A program made the translations under genes and the position numbers. From a virus, in the IMG/VR virus record IMGVR_UViG_3300027631_000096, positions 1-29,444 of that record: DNA of 29,444 bases; one strand, written 5' to 3'. The notes below the pieces were generated by a model. The model was not told the DNA's origin. It ran no database searches and was given only the letters and a program-made list of their open reading frames with translations. This document shows positions 3,371 through 8,513 of this stretch, piece after piece (position 1 is the stretch's first letter; the number at the start of each line of letters is the position of its first letter).

Positions 3371-3558
3371 TATAAATATTGTGCTAATATTAATTGTTTA
3401 TCTAACTGCTGCTCATCTGATAACGAACCAAAGGTAATAAAATTTGCTTCAATTTTAGCTAATTCTTTTAAATGATTTGTAGCAATGTCCAATCTTCTTT
3501 GTTGGTGTTTCATTATTAACTCCAATGATTCTATTTGTTGTAGGATTACTTCTTCCAT
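3370..3558 (-). CDS. Small coiled-coil early protein (62 aa)
   Basis: Strongly heptad-like from residue 3 to 40 (VILQQIESLELIMKHQQRRL...). A short TFGSLSDEQQLDKQL motif follows, resembling TFGNISNDLEIEL in the gene before it, so the two may be distant paralogues. Function unknown; such proteins often oligomerise or act as adaptors. It begins on a TAATG junction with the first gene of the operon. Confidence 0.6.
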   Translation of the reverse strand: MEEVILQQIESLELIMKHQQRRLDIATNHLKELAKIEANFITFGSLSDEQQLDKQLILAQYL

Positions 3559-3791
3559 TATAATATAGTTATTTCTTCTATTAATCTTATCTTTAATCTT
3601 GCTAATTCAATCTCCAGATCATTACTAATGTTTCCAAAAGTAGTTCGTTCTTGTTCAATAACATTAATCCTTCTGTTAATCCTTTCAATTGTACCACAAA
3701 TACCATTAATATCTTCGATAAGACCATCAAGTACTTCGTCATTGTAAGAGTTACTTACATACTCCAATAATTTTTCAAGTGCCGTTTGCAT
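3558..3791 (-). CDS. First gene of the leftward early operon; coiled-coil protein (about 77 aa)
   Basis: The frame can be opened at GTG 3815, ATG 3797 or ATG 3791. ATG 3791 is preferred: it lies 13 nt after the AAACTT of the repeated leader, and in the two other leader copies the first ATG lies 14 nt after that motif. GTG 3815 sits inside the conserved leader, where the other copies do not read in frame. The product (MQTALEKLLEYVSNSYNDEV...) is helical, with heptads over about residues 30-75. Function unknown. Expression should follow the promoter at 3841-3871. Confidence 0.6.
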   Translation of the reverse strand: MQTALEKLLEYVSNSYNDEVLDGLIEDINGICGTIERINRRINVIEQERTTFGNISNDLEIELARLKIRLIEEITIL

Positions 3792-3801
3792 AAGCATATA
3801 T

Positions 3802-3844
3802 TTAAAGTTTGCCACAAATTTGCTTCCTTAACTTCGAGTACAAA
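3802..3844 (-). repeat. Repeated early leader, copy 1
   Basis: 43 bp matching 5641-5683 with a single mismatch, and more loosely 6375-6412 on the other strand. It runs from the TTTG of the -7 box to the translation start region and carries AAGTT...AACTT ends that can pair. See the finding on the shared leader. Confidence 0.85.
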
Positions 3845-3871
3845 TCTATATAAGTTATATTAATCCACAAA
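3841..3871 (-). promoter_or_regulatory. Bacteroidetes-type promoter of the leftward early operon
   Basis: On the minus strand, TTTG (3868-3871) and TAGATTTG (3841-3848) are separated by 19 nt. This fits the Bacteroidetes consensus TTTG-(about 19)-TAnnTTTG. It is the best complete promoter in the window. The start of transcription should fall near 3835, giving a short leader made of the repeated element. Confidence 0.75.
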
Positions 3872-3950
3872 ATAATTTAGATAACTTTAACACAAAAGTG
3901 CTGTTTTGTAGGAAAAAAGTATTGAAAAGTGCCATATTTCAATTTTTATA

Positions 3951-4103
3951 AAAAAAAAGTGCGTTTTTATACCCCCCCCCTAAACGAAATACCAAAATAG
4001 GGGGGGGGGTCTATTTCCCATATTTTTATAAAAAAAACTAATTAATTAATATATATATAAAAAGAGTATTATTGTATTAATTAATTTAGTATCTTTGTAG
4101 CAA
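3951..4103 (+). repeat. Poly-C/poly-G hairpin promoter repeat, copy A
   Basis: It matches 9042-9193. The left 34 bp (3951-3984) are identical to 9042-9075 and include C9 at 3972-3980. A different 19-nt loop follows, then G10 at 4000-4009 with TCTATTTCC after it. The AT-rich segment is diverged, and a conserved promoter box with GTAGCAA follows. The arms form a stem of about 12 bp (A-C9-TA with TA-G9-T). It lies between divergent transcription units. Confidence 0.85.
4090..4097 (+). promoter_or_regulatory. -7 box TATCTTTG for the rightward early unit
   Basis: A TAnnTTTG match 20 bp before ATG 4117, in the same context as the terminase promoter (9180-9187): TTAATTT(A/T)GTA(A/T)CTTTGTAGCAA. No good -33 TTTG lies at the expected distance. 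Confidence 0.6.
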
Positions 4104-4116
4104 CTAATATATTATT

Positions 4117-4416
4117 ATGATTGTTTACTTTTATTTAAAAACAAAACCATTTAAAGAAGAAGAAGGATTAGTATATATCAATGGACACATATTGCATTAC
4201 GATGTTTATGGAAATGAATATGAAACCGATAGCGTAATCACAATGGACACTGACTTCTATTTGGATTTATTATTATTAAAATGTAAGCATAAGAAATATT
4301 CTTTTCTTAATATGTCCAAAGAAATGTTTGTTAAATCAAATCCCATATATATCAACAATGGAAAGATATGTGGTTCAGATAAAAATGGAGAAATTAAACT
4401 ATTAGAAGAAATATGA
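4117..4416 (+). CDS. Hypothetical protein (99 aa)
   Basis: The family is not recognised. It is beta-rich and tyrosine-rich (begins MIVYFYLKTKPFKEEEGLVY) with no catalytic motif visible. It is the first gene of a two- or three-gene rightward unit that starts from the hairpin-repeat promoter. Its stop overlaps the next ATG (ATGA at 4413-4416), so it is probably translated together with the MazG-like protein. Confidence 0.6.
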   Translation: MIVYFYLKTKPFKEEEGLVYINGHILHYDVYGNEYETDSVITMDTDFYLDLLLLKCKHKKYSFLNMSKEMFVKSNPIYINNGKICGSDKNGEIKLLEEI

Positions 4417-4787
4417 GTATAAGTCACACTGGAATGGTATTCTTTGGAACTGAAGCAAAACCATATAGAGAAGAAGTAATTAAAGATACGATTGTAGAAA
4501 GCGTTGTAAATCGATTTAAAGAGCGTTCTGAAGTAGGAATTGCTAAATATGGTACTACGATGGATAGAAAAGATTTGAGTACCTTAGAATGGATGATTCA
4601 CTTCCGAGAAGAATTGATGGATGGATTATTATATTTAGAGCGTGTAATAAAAGACACACAAAAAGAAAATATAATTGATATAATGAAGTCTGATGAAGAA
4701 TTAGGATTGTATGCAAATACTCTTAGTGGAACAACATCATCAACCACAAATAATTCATATAGTGTAGTTGAATGTAAATGTAAATAA
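4413..4787 (+). CDS. MazG-like (all-alpha NTP pyrophosphohydrolase type) phage protein
   Basis: Residues about 32-84 read FKERSEVGIAKYGTTMDRKD, then EWMIHFREELMDGLLYLERV. They match a widespread phage protein type with the pattern RF.ERS..G..KYGTT..R.DLS...W..H..EELMD...Y. The E..EE..D helix resembles the metal-binding helix of MazG/dUTPase-like all-alpha NTP pyrophosphatases, so it may clean or bias nucleotide pools. The last 25 residues are a Ser/Thr/Asn-rich tail ending CKCK. Whether it is an active hydrolase cannot be judged, because the second acidic helix is not obvious. Confidence 0.6.
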   Translation: MSISHTGMVFFGTEAKPYREEVIKDTIVESVVNRFKERSEVGIAKYGTTMDRKDLSTLEWMIHFREELMDGLLYLERVIKDTQKENIIDIMKSDEELGLYANTLSGTTSSTTNNSYSVVECKCK

Positions 4788-4789
4788 AA

Positions 4790-4873
4790 ATGTCCACATC
4801 GATTAAGATGCAGACACTTTATAAACTGAACTCTCCCAGCAGTCAAGAATATGTATATTTGTTAGGCTTATGA
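4790..4873 (+). CDS. Possible 27-aa peptide
   Basis: An ATG 2 bp after the MazG-like stop opens 27 codons (MSTSIKMQTLYKLNSPSSQE...) up to TGA 4873. Codon and residue composition look coding rather than random, and no other explanation for 4788-4957 was found. It could also be a remnant of a longer gene. Unrecognised. Confidence 0.35.
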   Translation: MSTSIKMQTLYKLNSPSSQEYVYLLGL

Positions 4874-4957
4874 ATATTATCCCCATTGATTAACTCCTAA
4901 CTTTGACTCACGCATATACACCGCCATCGATATATCTTTTATATAGATTCCTTTTTG

Positions 4958-5248
4958 TTAATCGGGGTTTATGAATTTCAATAGTTTAATGTCCACTTCT
5001 GATTTTAAATCAAATCTTAATTGAACTAAACTACGTTCTACTATTCCTATAATTTCTTTTTTCTCGATATTCTTCCAAGATAACCTGCCTATTAATATTG
5101 TTTTATTTTTAAGTATTAAATAAGCTAAAGCAGTATCGTACATTTTCTTTCTTGCTTTGTTTACAAAATCATAATCAATAGTGTCCATATCTAAAATAGA
5201 CTGATTATTTTTTGTTATCAACTCCAGATCATTTTCTAATTCCTCCAT
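4958..5248 (-). CDS. Hypothetical early protein (96 aa)
   Basis: A helical, charged protein (begins MEELENDLELITKNNQSIL) with a short hydrophobic helix (TALAYLILKNKTILIGRL, about residues 38-55). Function unknown. Its ATG shares a base with the stop of the gene before it (TAATG). It is the last gene of the second leftward operon and converges on the 4117-4873 unit. The 84 bp between the convergent ends hold only a poor, interrupted inverted repeat (4881-4894 with 4957-4967). Confidence 0.6.
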   Translation of the reverse strand: MEELENDLELITKNNQSILDMDTIDYDFVNKARKKMYDTALAYLILKNKTILIGRLSWKNIEKKEIIGIVERSLVQLRFDLKSEVDIKLLKFINPD

Positions 5249-5403
5249 TATAAAAAATAATTATTTGTAGGATTTAATACTTCTCCAACTGTCCATTCTT
5301 GAGAGCAATCTAAATGGTTTTCAATCCAAATTCTTGCATCTGATATATTTTTGGCTCTGAACGTGTAATGTTCTTTTTCTGACCTTGCGTAATATGTTTT
5401 CAT
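5248..5403 (-). CDS. Small hypothetical early protein (51 aa)
   Basis: ATG 5403 (MKTYYARSEKEHYTFRAKN...) is preferred over ATG 5430, because a separate short frame ends at 5408 just upstream and the start at 5403 gives a natural MKTYYA opening. The middle (SDARIWIENHLDCSQEWTVG) looks like a compact alpha/beta fold. Unrecognised. Confidence 0.6.
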   Translation of the reverse strand: MKTYYARSEKEHYTFRAKNISDARIWIENHLDCSQEWTVGEVLNPTNNYFL

Positions 5404-5407
5404 TTTT

Positions 5408-5476
5408 CTATGTATTATGTTGACCAACAATTTTTAAAGTTATCTTATCATATAAAATTCCACTTTCGGAATTCAT
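5408..5476 (-). CDS. Possible 22-aa micro-ORF
   Basis: ATG 5476 to TAG 5408 (begins MNSESGILYDKITLK), 4 bp before the next start and 15 bp after the previous stop. It fits the operon spacing but is too short to establish from sequence alone. Confidence 0.35.
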   Translation of the reverse strand: MNSESGILYDKITLKIVGQHNT

Positions 5477-5491
5477 TAGTGTATTTCTATC

Positions 5492-5629
5492 TTAGTGAAT
5501 TAAATGATTATTAGTATTTGGAAAATTTAATAAATCACATATTTCGTCAATTATACAATCTCCGTATTCTTCGCAATTATAACTAATTAAAACCTCTCTT
5601 AATTTTTCGTGAATTTCTGTTGTGTTCAT
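5492..5629 (-). CDS. First gene of second leftward operon, small acidic protein (45 aa)
   Basis: ATG 5629 lies 14 nt after the AAACTT of the repeated leader. The peptide begins MNTTEIHEKLREVLISYN, is acidic, and contains three cysteines (CEEYGDC...IC). It is predicted to be helical, with no known family. The conserved leader and promoter upstream strongly support this start, although the gene is short. Confidence 0.6.
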   Translation of the reverse strand: MNTTEIHEKLREVLISYNCEEYGDCIIDEICDLLNFPNTNNHLIH

Positions 5630-5640
5630 TTTTATAAGTA

Positions 5641-5683
5641 TTAAAGTTTGTCACAAATTTGCTTCCTTAACTTCGAGTACAAA
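5641..5683 (-). repeat. Repeated early leader, copy 2
   Basis: 42 of 43 bases match 3802-3844 (the only difference is T5651 versus C3812). It spans from the TTTG of the -7 box towards the first ATG. Confidence 0.85.
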
Positions 5684-5687
5684 CGTA
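5680..5687 (-). promoter_or_regulatory. -7 box TACGTTTG for second leftward operon
   Basis: A TAnnTTTG match on the minus strand at the same position relative to the leader as in copy 1. The -33 region reads TTCG rather than TTTG, 18 nt upstream, so this promoter may be weaker or helped by an activator. Confidence 0.65.
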
Positions 5688-5764
5688 CAATTGTTATTTG
5701 AATTACGAACTATGTTTATTAAAATATTAAGAAAAATTTAACATTTGGCTCGATTTTACTGGGA

Positions 5765-5848
5765 TTTCTAATTTCTAATTTCTAATTTCTAATTTCTAAT
5801 TTCTAATTTCTAATTTCTAATTTCTAATTTCTAATTTCTAATTTCTAA
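5765..5848. repeat. 12 perfect tandem copies of a heptamer
   Basis: Unit TTTCTAA, 12 units without a mismatch (84 bp), followed by a decayed partial unit. Non-coding. It may be iteron-like, an AT-rich unwinding element, or a slippage-prone microsatellite. Confidence 0.95.
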
Positions 5849-5949
5849 TTTTCAACTACCGACCATACCAAGTAGAGATCTAAAAGCCAGATCTGGGCAA
5901 AGCAAATTAGTAGGTAAAAAACAGTAGTAGGTATAACAAAGTAATGATT

Positions 5950-5980
5950 TTAATACCCTATTAAATTAGTAGACTAATAA
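5950..5980. repeat. 31-bp direct repeat, copy 1
   Basis: Matches 6056-6086 at 29 of 31 bases. It contains the inverted motif ATTAGT-AG-ACTAAT. The two copies bracket the dyad array. Confidence 0.9.
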
Positions 5981-5981
5981 A

Positions 5982-6030
5982 TAACAAATTGTTACAAATA
6001 TAACATTGTTACAAATATAACAAATTGTTA
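5982..6030. repeat. Array of three evenly spaced dyads (operator/iteron candidate)
   Basis: TAACAAATTGTTA at 5982-5994, TAACATTGTTA at 6001-6011, and TAACAAATTGTTA at 6018-6030. Their centres (5988, 6006, 6024) are exactly 18 bp apart. Each half-site is TAACA/TGTTA. Regular spacing suggests a dimeric protein binding side by side. Confidence 0.8.
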
Positions 6031-6055
6031 AAAAAATAAAATCAAGGATCTGGAA

Positions 6056-6086
6056 TTAATACCCTACTAAATTGGTAGACTAATAA
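6056..6086. repeat. 31-bp direct repeat, copy 2
   Basis: Second copy of 5950-5980, with two mismatches (T to C and A to G). Confidence 0.9.
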
Positions 6087-6371
6087 TTAGTCAATTTTGT
6101 AGGAAATTTGTAGAAAAACGATTTTAAGGTACATTTAAAGAATTGTTTTTTTCAAAATATACTCTACTATCAAAACTTCTATATATTGCCTTAATCGCAA
6201 AAACCATGTAAATACGGGGCTTCGCAGAGGTACGATTTTCCTACAAATTGCACATCTTCATGATTTTAACAAATTGATTGCAGAATTATCAATAAAAGAC
6301 CAGTTTTGTTGCATTATTATACCCATTTGTGTTAAAGTTTATAAAAGTAGTTTTTTAATCAAATAAATAAA

Positions 6372-6379
6372 TATCTTTG
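6372..6379 (+). promoter_or_regulatory. -7 box TATCTTTG for the amidoligase cassette
   Basis: A TAnnTTTG match immediately followed by the third, diverged copy of the early leader. No clear -33 TTTG is present. It should start transcription near 6385, giving a leader of about 45 nt before ATG 6429. Confidence 0.65.
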
Positions 6380-6412
6380 TATTCAAGTTAACGAAGCAAT
6401 TTTGCGGGAAAC
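6375..6412 (+). repeat. Repeated early leader, copy 3 (diverged, opposite strand)
   Basis: It aligns with copies 1 and 2 from TTTGTA through AAGTTAACGAAGCAA, then TTTGCGGGAAACTT, with one deletion and about six substitutions. The AAACTT-to-ATG distance (14 nt) equals that of copy 2. Confidence 0.7.
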
Positions 6413-6428
6413 TTAAAACCTTAATAAA

Positions 6429-6527
6429 ATGAAAAACTACCTATCAAAACAAAAACTACAAATATTGACAATTCAAATATTTGCATACTATTTAATAATC
6501 AATTTTTTAATCAATTTAATAAACTAA
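6429..6527 (+). CDS. Membrane micropeptide 1 of the amidoligase cassette (32 aa)
   Basis: ATG 6429 is the first start after the conserved leader, with the same spacing as in copy 2. Eleven polar or basic residues (MKNYLSKQKLQ) are followed by about 20 hydrophobic ones (ILTIQIFAYYLIINFLINLI), giving one predicted membrane span with the positive end probably inside. The stop lies 4 bp before the amidoligase ATG, so translation is probably coupled. It might be a membrane tether, a small toxin or a leader peptide. Unrecognised. Confidence 0.5.
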   Translation: MKNYLSKQKLQILTIQIFAYYLIINFLINLIN

Positions 6528-6531
6528 AATT

Positions 6532-7716
6532 ATGGAAACTCAAATTTTAAGAAACGCAATAAAATCTATAAACAAAGATTTTTGCACAAAACACCAATTC
6601 AGAAACGAAGACGTTTTCGAGCATAACGGACTATATTACAGTATAGATTATTACGTTATTTTGCATAACGGGGATATTGCAGAAGCCGAAGATGCAATTT
6701 TTTGCGAATATTACGAAGAGTATTTTTATTCCGAAGATGTGAGAGAAGTAGAAATTTATAAAAATACTCAATATTACTCAAATTTGGCAATTGATAGACT
6801 TTATCTAGTTTGTATAAATGGTAAATATTACGATGAAGAAGCACTAGAATACAATGGTTTTCACTACTTGCAAGATATTGAAGAATGGTCAGATAACGAT
6901 GCATATTGGCACGAAAGCGAAGATGCATATTTTAGTTATCCTGAAAGCGAAAGCAAAAATTATACACGTGGATACCATAACGGAAGTTATAAAGAAATGA
7001 TTTTCGATAATATTTCACTTTATAAAATCGGTTACGAAATAGAAAAAGAAGATAGGGACATTTTAGAGTCAATAAATATAGACGATTTTGAAAGCGAAAC
7101 AGACTATTTTTGGAGAAAAGAGGAGGACAGCAGTTTGAATAGTGGGTCAGGTTTTGAACTAATTAGTCCTACTTTTGAACTTGACACCGAAAAGATTTTC
7201 GACTTAATAAATAATAACGACACTTTAAAAGATCACATAAATGCTAGTTTTTCAACATCTTGTGGAGGGCATATAAATTTGTCAAAAAAAGACTGCAACG
7301 GTGAAGAAGTTTTTAATTTGGTTTGTGGTTATACTCCCCTCCTTTACTCCTTATATTACGGGAGAGTTGATAAAAATTACAGTAAAGGTAAAAGCAATAA
7401 AGACCTAAAAAACGACAACGAAAAATACCAAGCAATAAAAATCCATAATAATAGAATTGAATTTCGCATAATTTCGGCAGTCCCGAACGTGGAAACCCTA
7501 CTTTGGAGAACTAAATTAATTGAAAAAATGTTGGAACACCCAACGGCAGATGTAAGAACTGCATATTGGCACATTAAAACAAAGTTTAAAACACTTTTAA
7601 GCGAAGTTTATAATACCGATAAAATGCAGATTTTAAACGATAGAATAGTGAAAAATACCCTAAAATTTGAGGGCGTTGATTTAACAAAAACAAGAAAAAA
7701 CGATAATAAAAACTAG
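6532..7716 (+). CDS. Amidoligase-family enzyme (COOH-NH2 ligase, Amidoligase_2 type)
   Basis: 394 aa. The C-terminal 230 residues match the glutamine-synthetase-like amidoligase fold. IGYEIEKED (166-174) is the first strand with the metal/ATP acidic pair. EEDSSLNSGSGFELISP (197-213) is the DgSl...ElvSP motif. CGGHINLS (244-251) corresponds to the family's cGfHvH. IHNNRIEFRII (304-314) and LLWRTKLIEKM (323-333) are the EfR...W segment. Such enzymes join a carboxylate to an amine using ATP; the substrate is not known here. The N-terminal 150 residues are acidic, tyrosine-rich repeats (IFCEYYEEYFYSEDV, VCINGKYYDEEAL) that look like zinc-ribbon repeats with most cysteines lost. It sits 5 bp before the amidotransferase gene. 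Iyer, Aravind and colleagues described phage amidoligases with such partners. Confidence 0.82.
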   Translation: METQILRNAIKSINKDFCTKHQFRNEDVFEHNGLYYSIDYYVILHNGDIAEAEDAIFCEYYEEYFYSEDVREVEIYKNTQYYSNLAIDRLYLVCINGKYYDEEALEYNGFHYLQDIEEWSDNDAYWHESEDAYFSYPESESKNYTRGYHNGSYKEMIFDNISLYKIGYEIEKEDRDILESINIDDFESETDYFWRKEEDSSLNSGSGFELISPTFELDTEKIFDLINNNDTLKDHINASFSTSCGGHINLSKKDCNGEEVFNLVCGYTPLLYSLYYGRVDKNYSKGKSNKDLKNDNEKYQAIKIHNNRIEFRIISAVPNVETLLWRTKLIEKMLEHPTADVRTAYWHIKTKFKTLLSEVYNTDKMQILNDRIVKNTLKFEGVDLTKTRKNDNKN

Positions 7717-7721
7717 AAATT

Positions 7722-8513
7722 ATGTGCATAGCAATATTGAATACTAAAGGAAAATTGAGCAAAGAAACGATAAAAAACAGTTTTGACAACAACGAAATGG
7801 GTGCAGGGCTTTTATGGAACGCAAACGGAAAATTAAACACTTTTAAAACCTACAAATTTAACGCATTACTTCAGAAGTACAACGAATTGAGAAACAATAC
7901 AAAAACGGGTAAAATCGTTTTGCATTTTAGAATTGCTACAAGTGGCATAAATGGCAAGGAAAATTTGCACCCTTTTAATGTAAATGATAATTTAGGATTC
8001 GTACATAACGGGGTTATATCGGGACTCGGAAACGTAAAGCACTCGGATACATACCAATTTAACGAGATACTAAAAGACTTCAAACACGATTTTATTAACT
8101 GCAAAACCTCAAATTTATTTATTGCTAACTATATTGGCAGTGGCTCAAAATTGGTATTTTTAGACAATAACGGAAACCACACACTTATAAACGAGTCAAA
8201 AGGTCATTGGGATAAATCAAAACAAAATTGGTTTTCAAACGATAGTTATAAAGCCTACAATGATTATAAATGGTACGGAAGTACGAAAATATACAACACC
8301 GTTAAAAAGTATAATTATAAAATCGATACATTTTCAGAGGAAGAAAGTTATTGGGATACATTTTCGGAATGTTGCAGTTATTATAATATTGACGAAATGA
8401 ATATCAATTCAGATATGGAAATAGAATACTATTGCGAGTTAAATAATTGTGCGGATGTATACGAACTATTGCAACATTTGAAATTAAATAAATCCCTACA
8501 TTATGCAAAATAA
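7722..8513 (+). CDS. Class II (Ntn-type) glutamine amidotransferase
   Basis: 263 aa. It begins MCIAILNTKG, so removal of Met exposes Cys2 as the catalytic nucleophile. Other class II signatures are EMGAGLLW (25-32), HFRIATSG (68-75), NLHPF (81-85), the oxyanion-hole motif FVHNGVI (93-99) and SDTYQF (108-113). The expected activity is hydrolysis of glutamine to release ammonia, probably handed to the amidoligase next door, or a related amide hydrolysis. The last 100 residues (tyrosine- and asparagine-rich) are not part of the known core. The gene follows the amidoligase by 5 bp and overlaps a membrane micropeptide at its 3' end. Confidence 0.85.
   Translation: MCIAILNTKGKLSKETIKNSFDNNEMGAGLLWNANGKLNTFKTYKFNALLQKYNELRNNTKTGKIVLHFRIATSGINGKENLHPFNVNDNLGFVHNGVISGLGNVKHSDTYQFNEILKDFKHDFINCKTSNLFIANYIGSGSKLVFLDNNGNHTLINESKGHWDKSKQNWFSNDSYKAYNDYKWYGSTKIYNTVKKYNYKIDTFSEEESYWDTFSECCSYYNIDEMNINSDMEIEYYCELNNCADVYELLQHLKLNKSLHYAK

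Follow-up and report, generated by a model that had tools for sequence, protein, structure and literature searches.

Why should three operons of one phage, two running leftward and one rightward, begin behind copies of a single leader? We addressed this question in a 29,444-nt stretch of viral DNA (IMG/VR virus record IMGVR_UViG_3300027631_000096, positions 1 to 29,444; hereafter the window). Each leader proved to be a copy of the same ~30-nt RNA hairpin. By its conserved structure with compensatory changes and its predicted position between transcript start and AUG, the element can be classed, from sequence comparison, as a structured cis-acting leader RNA.

A preliminary description of this DNA had reported one promoter and leader in three copies, and base-by-base comparison bore this out. 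Copy 1 (3802-3844, minus strand) and copy 2 (5641-5683, minus strand) are identical at 42/43 bases, and copy 3 (6376-6417, plus strand) agrees with copy 1 at 31/43; nowhere else in the 29-kb window do more than 25/43 bases match. The coordinates first given for copies 1 and 2 stand, and those for copy 3 were off by 1-2 nt, its TTTG lying at 6376-6379 and its AAACTT ending at 6414.

Structure and covariation of the leader hairpin

The hairpin consists of an outer 5-bp stem, an internal loop (AANGAA/GGN'A), a 3-bp inner stem, and a small apical loop. The N-N' pair within the internal loop covaries, occurring as G-C, as C-G (copy 3 of the window), or as A-U (L086). Compensatory changes in relatives upheld the pairing of AAGTT with AACTT that the preliminary description had put forward; the inner stem, the covarying pair in the internal loop, and the spread of the element to many phages with unrelated first genes go beyond that description.

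Among 16 distinct hairpins, 9/9 pairs were changed on both sides and 99.3% of cells were paired, with 31 compensatory cells. The shuffle control for this pairing gave 0/500, and slid partners paired only 33-41%. A second set of 26 sequences, mostly of other phages, replicated the covariation picture. Outer stems occur as GAAGTT/AACTTT, GAAGTC/GACTTT, TTAGATT/AATCTAA, GTAGT/ACTAC, AGGAT/ATCCT, and AGGCT/AGCCT, and inner stems as GCA/TGT, ACA/TGT, GTG/CAC, GCT/AGT, and GTC/GAC.

We ran a structural descriptor, which required the loop strands and the pairing, on 6.2 Mb of fetched DNA. It returned 21 distinct sites, of which 20 immediately follow a TTTG box, whereas reversed sequences gave 0; a chance origin of the element is excluded. 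An unbiased tally came from scans whose pattern specified TTTG, AAGGAA, and GGCA, separated by permitted gaps, and left out the TA, the stems, and the ATG. Across the 267 distinct contexts, stems were present in 62/80 sites with TA compared with 4/187 without it (Fisher P = 4e-39), and an ATG stood at 13-15 nt in 50/66 sites with stems compared with 6/201 without (P = 3e-33); these P values are upper limits of strength, related sequences being non-independent.

Position between promoter and start codon

As first described, a TAnnTTTG box precedes all three copies: TAGATTTG at 3848-3841, TACGTTTG at 5687-5680, and TATCTTTG at 6372-6379. The TA of this box is invariant in 54 collected leaders, though it was absent from the search pattern. 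In Flavobacterium johnsoniae, transcripts start 4-5 nt past the TAHHTTTG box, and leaders average 33 nt (PMC6847099). Because the stem starts 4-6 nt past TTTG, both in the window clade and in the wider collection, the mRNA should open with the hairpin, at predicted position +1 or +2. Judged from the promoter and AUG positions, the element lies between the predicted transcription start and the start codon of the downstream gene, in keeping with the earlier claim that its conserved part is transcribed and not translated.

From the last T of AAACTT to the ATG there are 13, 14, and 14 nt in copies 1, 2, and 3, exactly as claimed, and this spacing fixes the starts of three genes, including micropeptide 1. 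The stem-to-start distance is 13-15 nt in 24/24 window-clade leaders, one of which starts with GTG, and the stem-to-ATG distance falls in the same range in 49/60 contexts of the wider collection. At hairpin-less promoter-like sites in the same records, the ATG distance is broad (median 28, standard deviation 27.5). The spacers themselves are conserved at particular positions: in 38 distinct spacers, A is found at -13 in 95%, at -12 in 89%, and at -3 in 89%. In F. johnsoniae, the determinants of initiation are A-3, A-6, and A-12/-13, and the surrounding RNA has little structure (PMC6847099).

The features of the window are as follows, with scores from R2, a covariance model of the hairpin only:

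3841..3870 (minus): promoter of copy 1, of the Bacteroidota -33/-7 type by sequence, with TTG (3870-3868), a 19-nt spacer, and TAGATTTG (3848-3841)
3805..3834 (minus): copy 1 hairpin, AAGTT-AAGGAA-GCA-AATT-TGT-GGCA-AACTT, supported by covariation; R2 49.2 bits, E 5.7e-10
3558..3791 (minus): first gene of the left (YqaJ exonuclease) operon, ATG 13 nt past the stem; orthologous first genes of relatives begin 13-14 nt past their hairpins
5680..5687 (minus): copy 2 -7 box by sequence, TACGTTTG
5644..5673 (minus): copy 2 hairpin, with the 3' loop strand GACA where GGCA is found elsewhere; R2 45.1 bits, E 6.5e-9
5492..5629 (minus): first gene of the short left operon (45 aa), ATG 14 nt past the stem
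6372..6379 (plus): copy 3 -7 box by sequence, TATCTTTG
6385..6414 (plus): copy 3 hairpin, AAGTT-AACGAA-GCA-ATTT-TGC-GGGA-AACTT, the internal G-C swapped to C-G in a compensatory change; R2 45.4 bits, E 5.3e-9
6429..6527 (plus): micropeptide 1 (32 aa), ATG 14 nt past the stem; homologous micropeptides in L085 (MKSFFQHQNKQIIFGQIIGIYFLINLLINLIN) and L012 (MKNYFTKQKPQILTAKIFAIYILTNLIINLIKL)
6532-7716 (plus): gene labelled amidoligase in the preliminary description, after micropeptide 1; no Pfam match here
7722-8513 (plus): GATase-like gene, after the 6532-7716 gene

Micropeptide 1, a small hydrophobic peptide, resembles a real gene.

The AAGGAA of the 5' loop strand does not behave as a Shine-Dalgarno sequence. 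In copy 1, it lies ~32 nt before the AUG, compared with an expected distance of about 5-10 nt, and in other copies it is AACGAA or AAAGAA, matched by a change on the 3' side. This reading of the leader is contradicted.

Three further observations concern the promoter and the spacer. In nearly every window-clade copy, the TTTG box is preceded, at a distance of ~45-60 nt, by a TGTTAAA[G/C]TTTT-like site (~3890, minus, ~5742, minus, and ~6331, plus, in the window; likewise in L010, L012, L085, L086, L101, and L125), possibly an activator site or UP element. The long leaders with a second hairpin (L387, L397, L398, L399, L412, L468, L469, and L470) carry it as a GAG-GCGGCAA-CTC-type structure, followed by an extra ACGGCAA before the start; CGGCAA thus occurs up to three times, possibly as repeated binding sites. 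In L442, the element at 1092 (minus) has an intact promoter and hairpin and no ATG within 60 nt, and this copy appears decayed or non-coding.

Distribution among phages

R2 detected 27 copies in 17 window-clade records at E ≤ 2e-6, with the next match at 0.018, a clear gap; the element is therefore conserved in related phages, as the preliminary description had it. Another 47 IMG/VR phage records, most of them unrelated, yielded 49 copies with the same model, a single one in nearly every record. Copies number 1-3 per genome and stand at different operons; the records being fragments, these numbers are minima. The wider records have few proteins in common with the window.

Within the window clade, the element stands at three sites: the left YqaJ-exonuclease operon, the short left operon, and the amidoligase cassette, which runs rightward. 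In nearly every relative, the short left operon opens with a different, unrelated first gene at the same spacing. In the other phages, the first gene is a short open reading frame that looks unrelated between records, sometimes followed, as judged by eye, by helix-turn-helix-like and terminase-like genes. Comparison of these records shows a mobile promoter-leader cassette, spread over otherwise unrelated phages.

The terminase of the window is related to those of phages of Flavobacterium, Polaribacter, Cellulophaga, and Bacteroides. From this relationship and the promoter type, we infer that the hosts are Bacteroidota-type bacteria. Because a related record of 44,113 bases has the element at both ends, the sequence suggests a phage genome of about 44 kb.

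Outside these phage records, the element was not recovered. No Rfam family matched over it at the gathering threshold, and the cultured-phage and plasmid collections yielded no convincing blastn match. A pattern scan of host genome contigs gave 28 matches, none with the hairpin structure. Covariance-model scans of ~1,180 partly overlapping Bacteroidota genome draws, made with a strict prefilter and no positive control among the draws, returned none, and neither Flavobacterium phage 11b nor Polaribacter phage P12002L gave a credible match to the model. Searches of the open-access literature found no account of a leader of this kind. Flavo-1 (RF01705) and other Bacteroidota RNAs in Rfam are likewise small structured RNAs (PMC2864571); the element, in contrast, matches no Rfam family. 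As compared here, the leader family appears to be new, standing outside Rfam and spread over otherwise unrelated phages.

Several unrelated features were seen in these records. About a dozen tandem TAATTTC 7-mers lie between copies 2 and 3 of the window (~5765-5850), and this array is longer in the near-identical contig L004. Paired C8-10/G8-10 homopolymer tracts stand ~100 nt ahead of rightward operons (window ~3970-4012; L004 minus strand ~1775-1745), and in L004 such tracts also precede the small-terminase gene. In L388, the region just upstream of the leader (840-1056, plus) matches the Rfam permuted tmRNA at 53 bits (cut-off 47), and ARAGORN finds no tmRNA. In L030, from ~+960 to +2500 relative to the first ATG past the element, a YqaJ-type frame is broken early and is followed by a GIY-YIG-like open reading frame and then a full YqaJ frame, which looks like a homing-endonuclease insertion.

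Possible roles of the hairpin

The preliminary description had left open whether the element is a protein-bound RNA, a DNA element, or a ribosome-recruiting leader. Action as RNA, as opposed to a DNA operator, is favored by the covariation, by the constant orientation, and by the asymmetry of the internal loop. An alternative at the DNA level, an operator or extended promoter element that has dyad symmetry and affects transcription, would account for the constant association with one promoter type and for the TGTTAAA-type site further upstream in the window clade. However, copies in L086 have differing self-complementary stems (TTAGATT/AATCTAA and GTAGT/ACTAC) in place of a constant half-site, and the asymmetry of the loop, the fixed orientation to the gene, and the conserved AUG spacing all speak against it. 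The operator reading is contradicted, and we give it very little credence. Ribosome recruitment, by comparison, fits the fixed AUG spacing and the A-3, A-12, and A-13 of the spacer.

We tentatively favor, at a little less than an even chance, a translation-level control element that most likely docks or holds the 30S subunit, directly or via a host factor. The cassette transcript is predicted to open with the ~30-nt hairpin, two short AU-rich helices around a conserved internal loop; an A-rich spacer of 13-15 nt then leads to the start codon of the phage operon's first gene. When the AUG occupies the P site of a 30S subunit, this fixed distance would bring the folded RNA to the subunit's upstream edge, beside the A-12/A-13 tract known to drive Flavobacterium initiation. 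Contact there, whether direct or mediated by a ribosomal protein or another conserved host factor, may dock or hold the subunit and so allow phage mRNAs to be translated efficiently or under control. Docking is singled out because Bacteroidia ribosomes do not use Shine-Dalgarno sequences (PMC9976891), and action on translation because a fixed distance to the AUG is something that antitermination and 5'-end protection do not require. The described F. johnsoniae initiation region shares the A residues of the spacer, but its determinants do not include a structured element directly upstream (PMC6847099). Since the stems are weak, the conserved internal loop is probably the part recognized by the partner. 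That partner is more likely to be encoded by the host than by the phage, given that the element occurs in phages sharing little else; the failure to find a shared phage regulator is a further pointer to the host, for instance to its 30S subunit or one of its ribosomal proteins.

Several points weigh against this proposal. The transcription start is predicted from sequence. The hairpins average -3.5 kcal/mol with a mean z of about -1, and on 90-nt folding two of the three window leaders favor another fold; minimum-free-energy folding by itself fails to single out the hairpin, the case for which is built on covariation. Conservation of AAGGAA/GGCA was partly built in by the scan patterns, although the variants GACA, AGCA, AACGAA/GGGA, and AAAGAA/GGTA, which were seen in the window or recovered by structure and model searches, are free of this bias. 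The ruler is not absolute: 8/60 wider leaders have the ATG 29-44 nt off, with a second hairpin between. Finally, F. johnsoniae initiation regions avoid structure (PMC6847099), and a hairpin so close could repress instead of enhancing.

The hairpin could instead be the site of a regulator, either a phage repressor or a host RNA-binding protein, that represses or activates translation of the operon. Protein sites typically show such conserved unpaired bases within covarying stems, the few copies at different operons would make a small regulon, and the hairpin adjoins the ribosome landing zone. The MS2 coat-protein operator is similarly a small RNA hairpin with conserved unpaired bases near a start codon; here, in contrast, the element belongs to double-stranded DNA phages, serves several operons, and sits at predicted +1, 13-15 nt from the AUG. 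Among protein families shared by most of 14 records, no common regulator and no phage-encoded RNA-binding protein was found, a search limited by small or diverged proteins and fragmentary records. We consider regulation of this kind unlikely, if worth keeping in view. Two possible roles that do not involve translation are less probable again. The putL/putR RNA of phage HK022 binds RNA polymerase and causes read-through of downstream terminators, and has two stem-loops with conserved unpaired bases. Like it and lambda nut, the present leader is a phage RNA repeated at several operon starts in both directions, with host machinery as the likely partner; a nascent hairpin that is predicted to form the 5' end, and that recurs in phages otherwise so different, would suit binding to a conserved host polymerase. 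However, here there is one short hairpin with a conserved internal loop, a second being seen only in 8 long leaders, no boxA/boxB was identified, and the distance rule to the AUG would be unexpected. In addition, no intrinsic terminator was found within the left operon downstream of copy 1, Rho-dependent ones being invisible to the search. Antitermination is thus an improbable role. The 5' stem-loops of some phage and bacterial mRNAs block 5'-end-dependent decay, and a hairpin starting at the predicted first or second nucleotide could act as such a stabilizer. The T7 gene 10 leader likewise has a 5'-terminal stem-loop, an A/U-rich spacer, and a phage-gene AUG, but here there is no Shine-Dalgarno sequence, the stem at +1 is weak, the loop is the conserved part, and the leader is spread among unrelated phages; protection would make the AUG spacing unnecessary. 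We see only a slim chance that this is its role.

Returning to 30S docking, a more specific form is a bacterial leader resembling an internal ribosome entry site, in which the folded RNA at the mRNA exit side recruits or positions the 30S subunit, the 13-15-nt ruler replaces the Shine-Dalgarno sequence, and the cassette is traded between unrelated phages as a ready-made expression unit. We consider this idea rather doubtful. Mimicry of rRNA was rejected, R2 giving only E values of 1.1 and above on Bacteroidota 16S/23S loci. The 23S rRNA sequence AAGGAACTCGGCAAA (L514; with CTA replacing CTC in L512 and L513) resembles both internal-loop strands joined; this likeness, noticed after the fact, is only a weak hint that an rRNA site might be mimicked.

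Bacteroidota carry an anti-Shine-Dalgarno sequence and leave it unused, and a phage-specific leader that is short, covaries, and keeps a fixed distance to the start codon would give a testable handle on how these bacteria choose messages for translation. The element marks start codons and operon first genes in dozens of uncultured phages, including micropeptides missed by gene callers, and the leader may serve as an expression part for Bacteroidota. Even if its partner is RNA polymerase or a repressor, a leader family absent from Rfam and spread over unrelated phages merits description.

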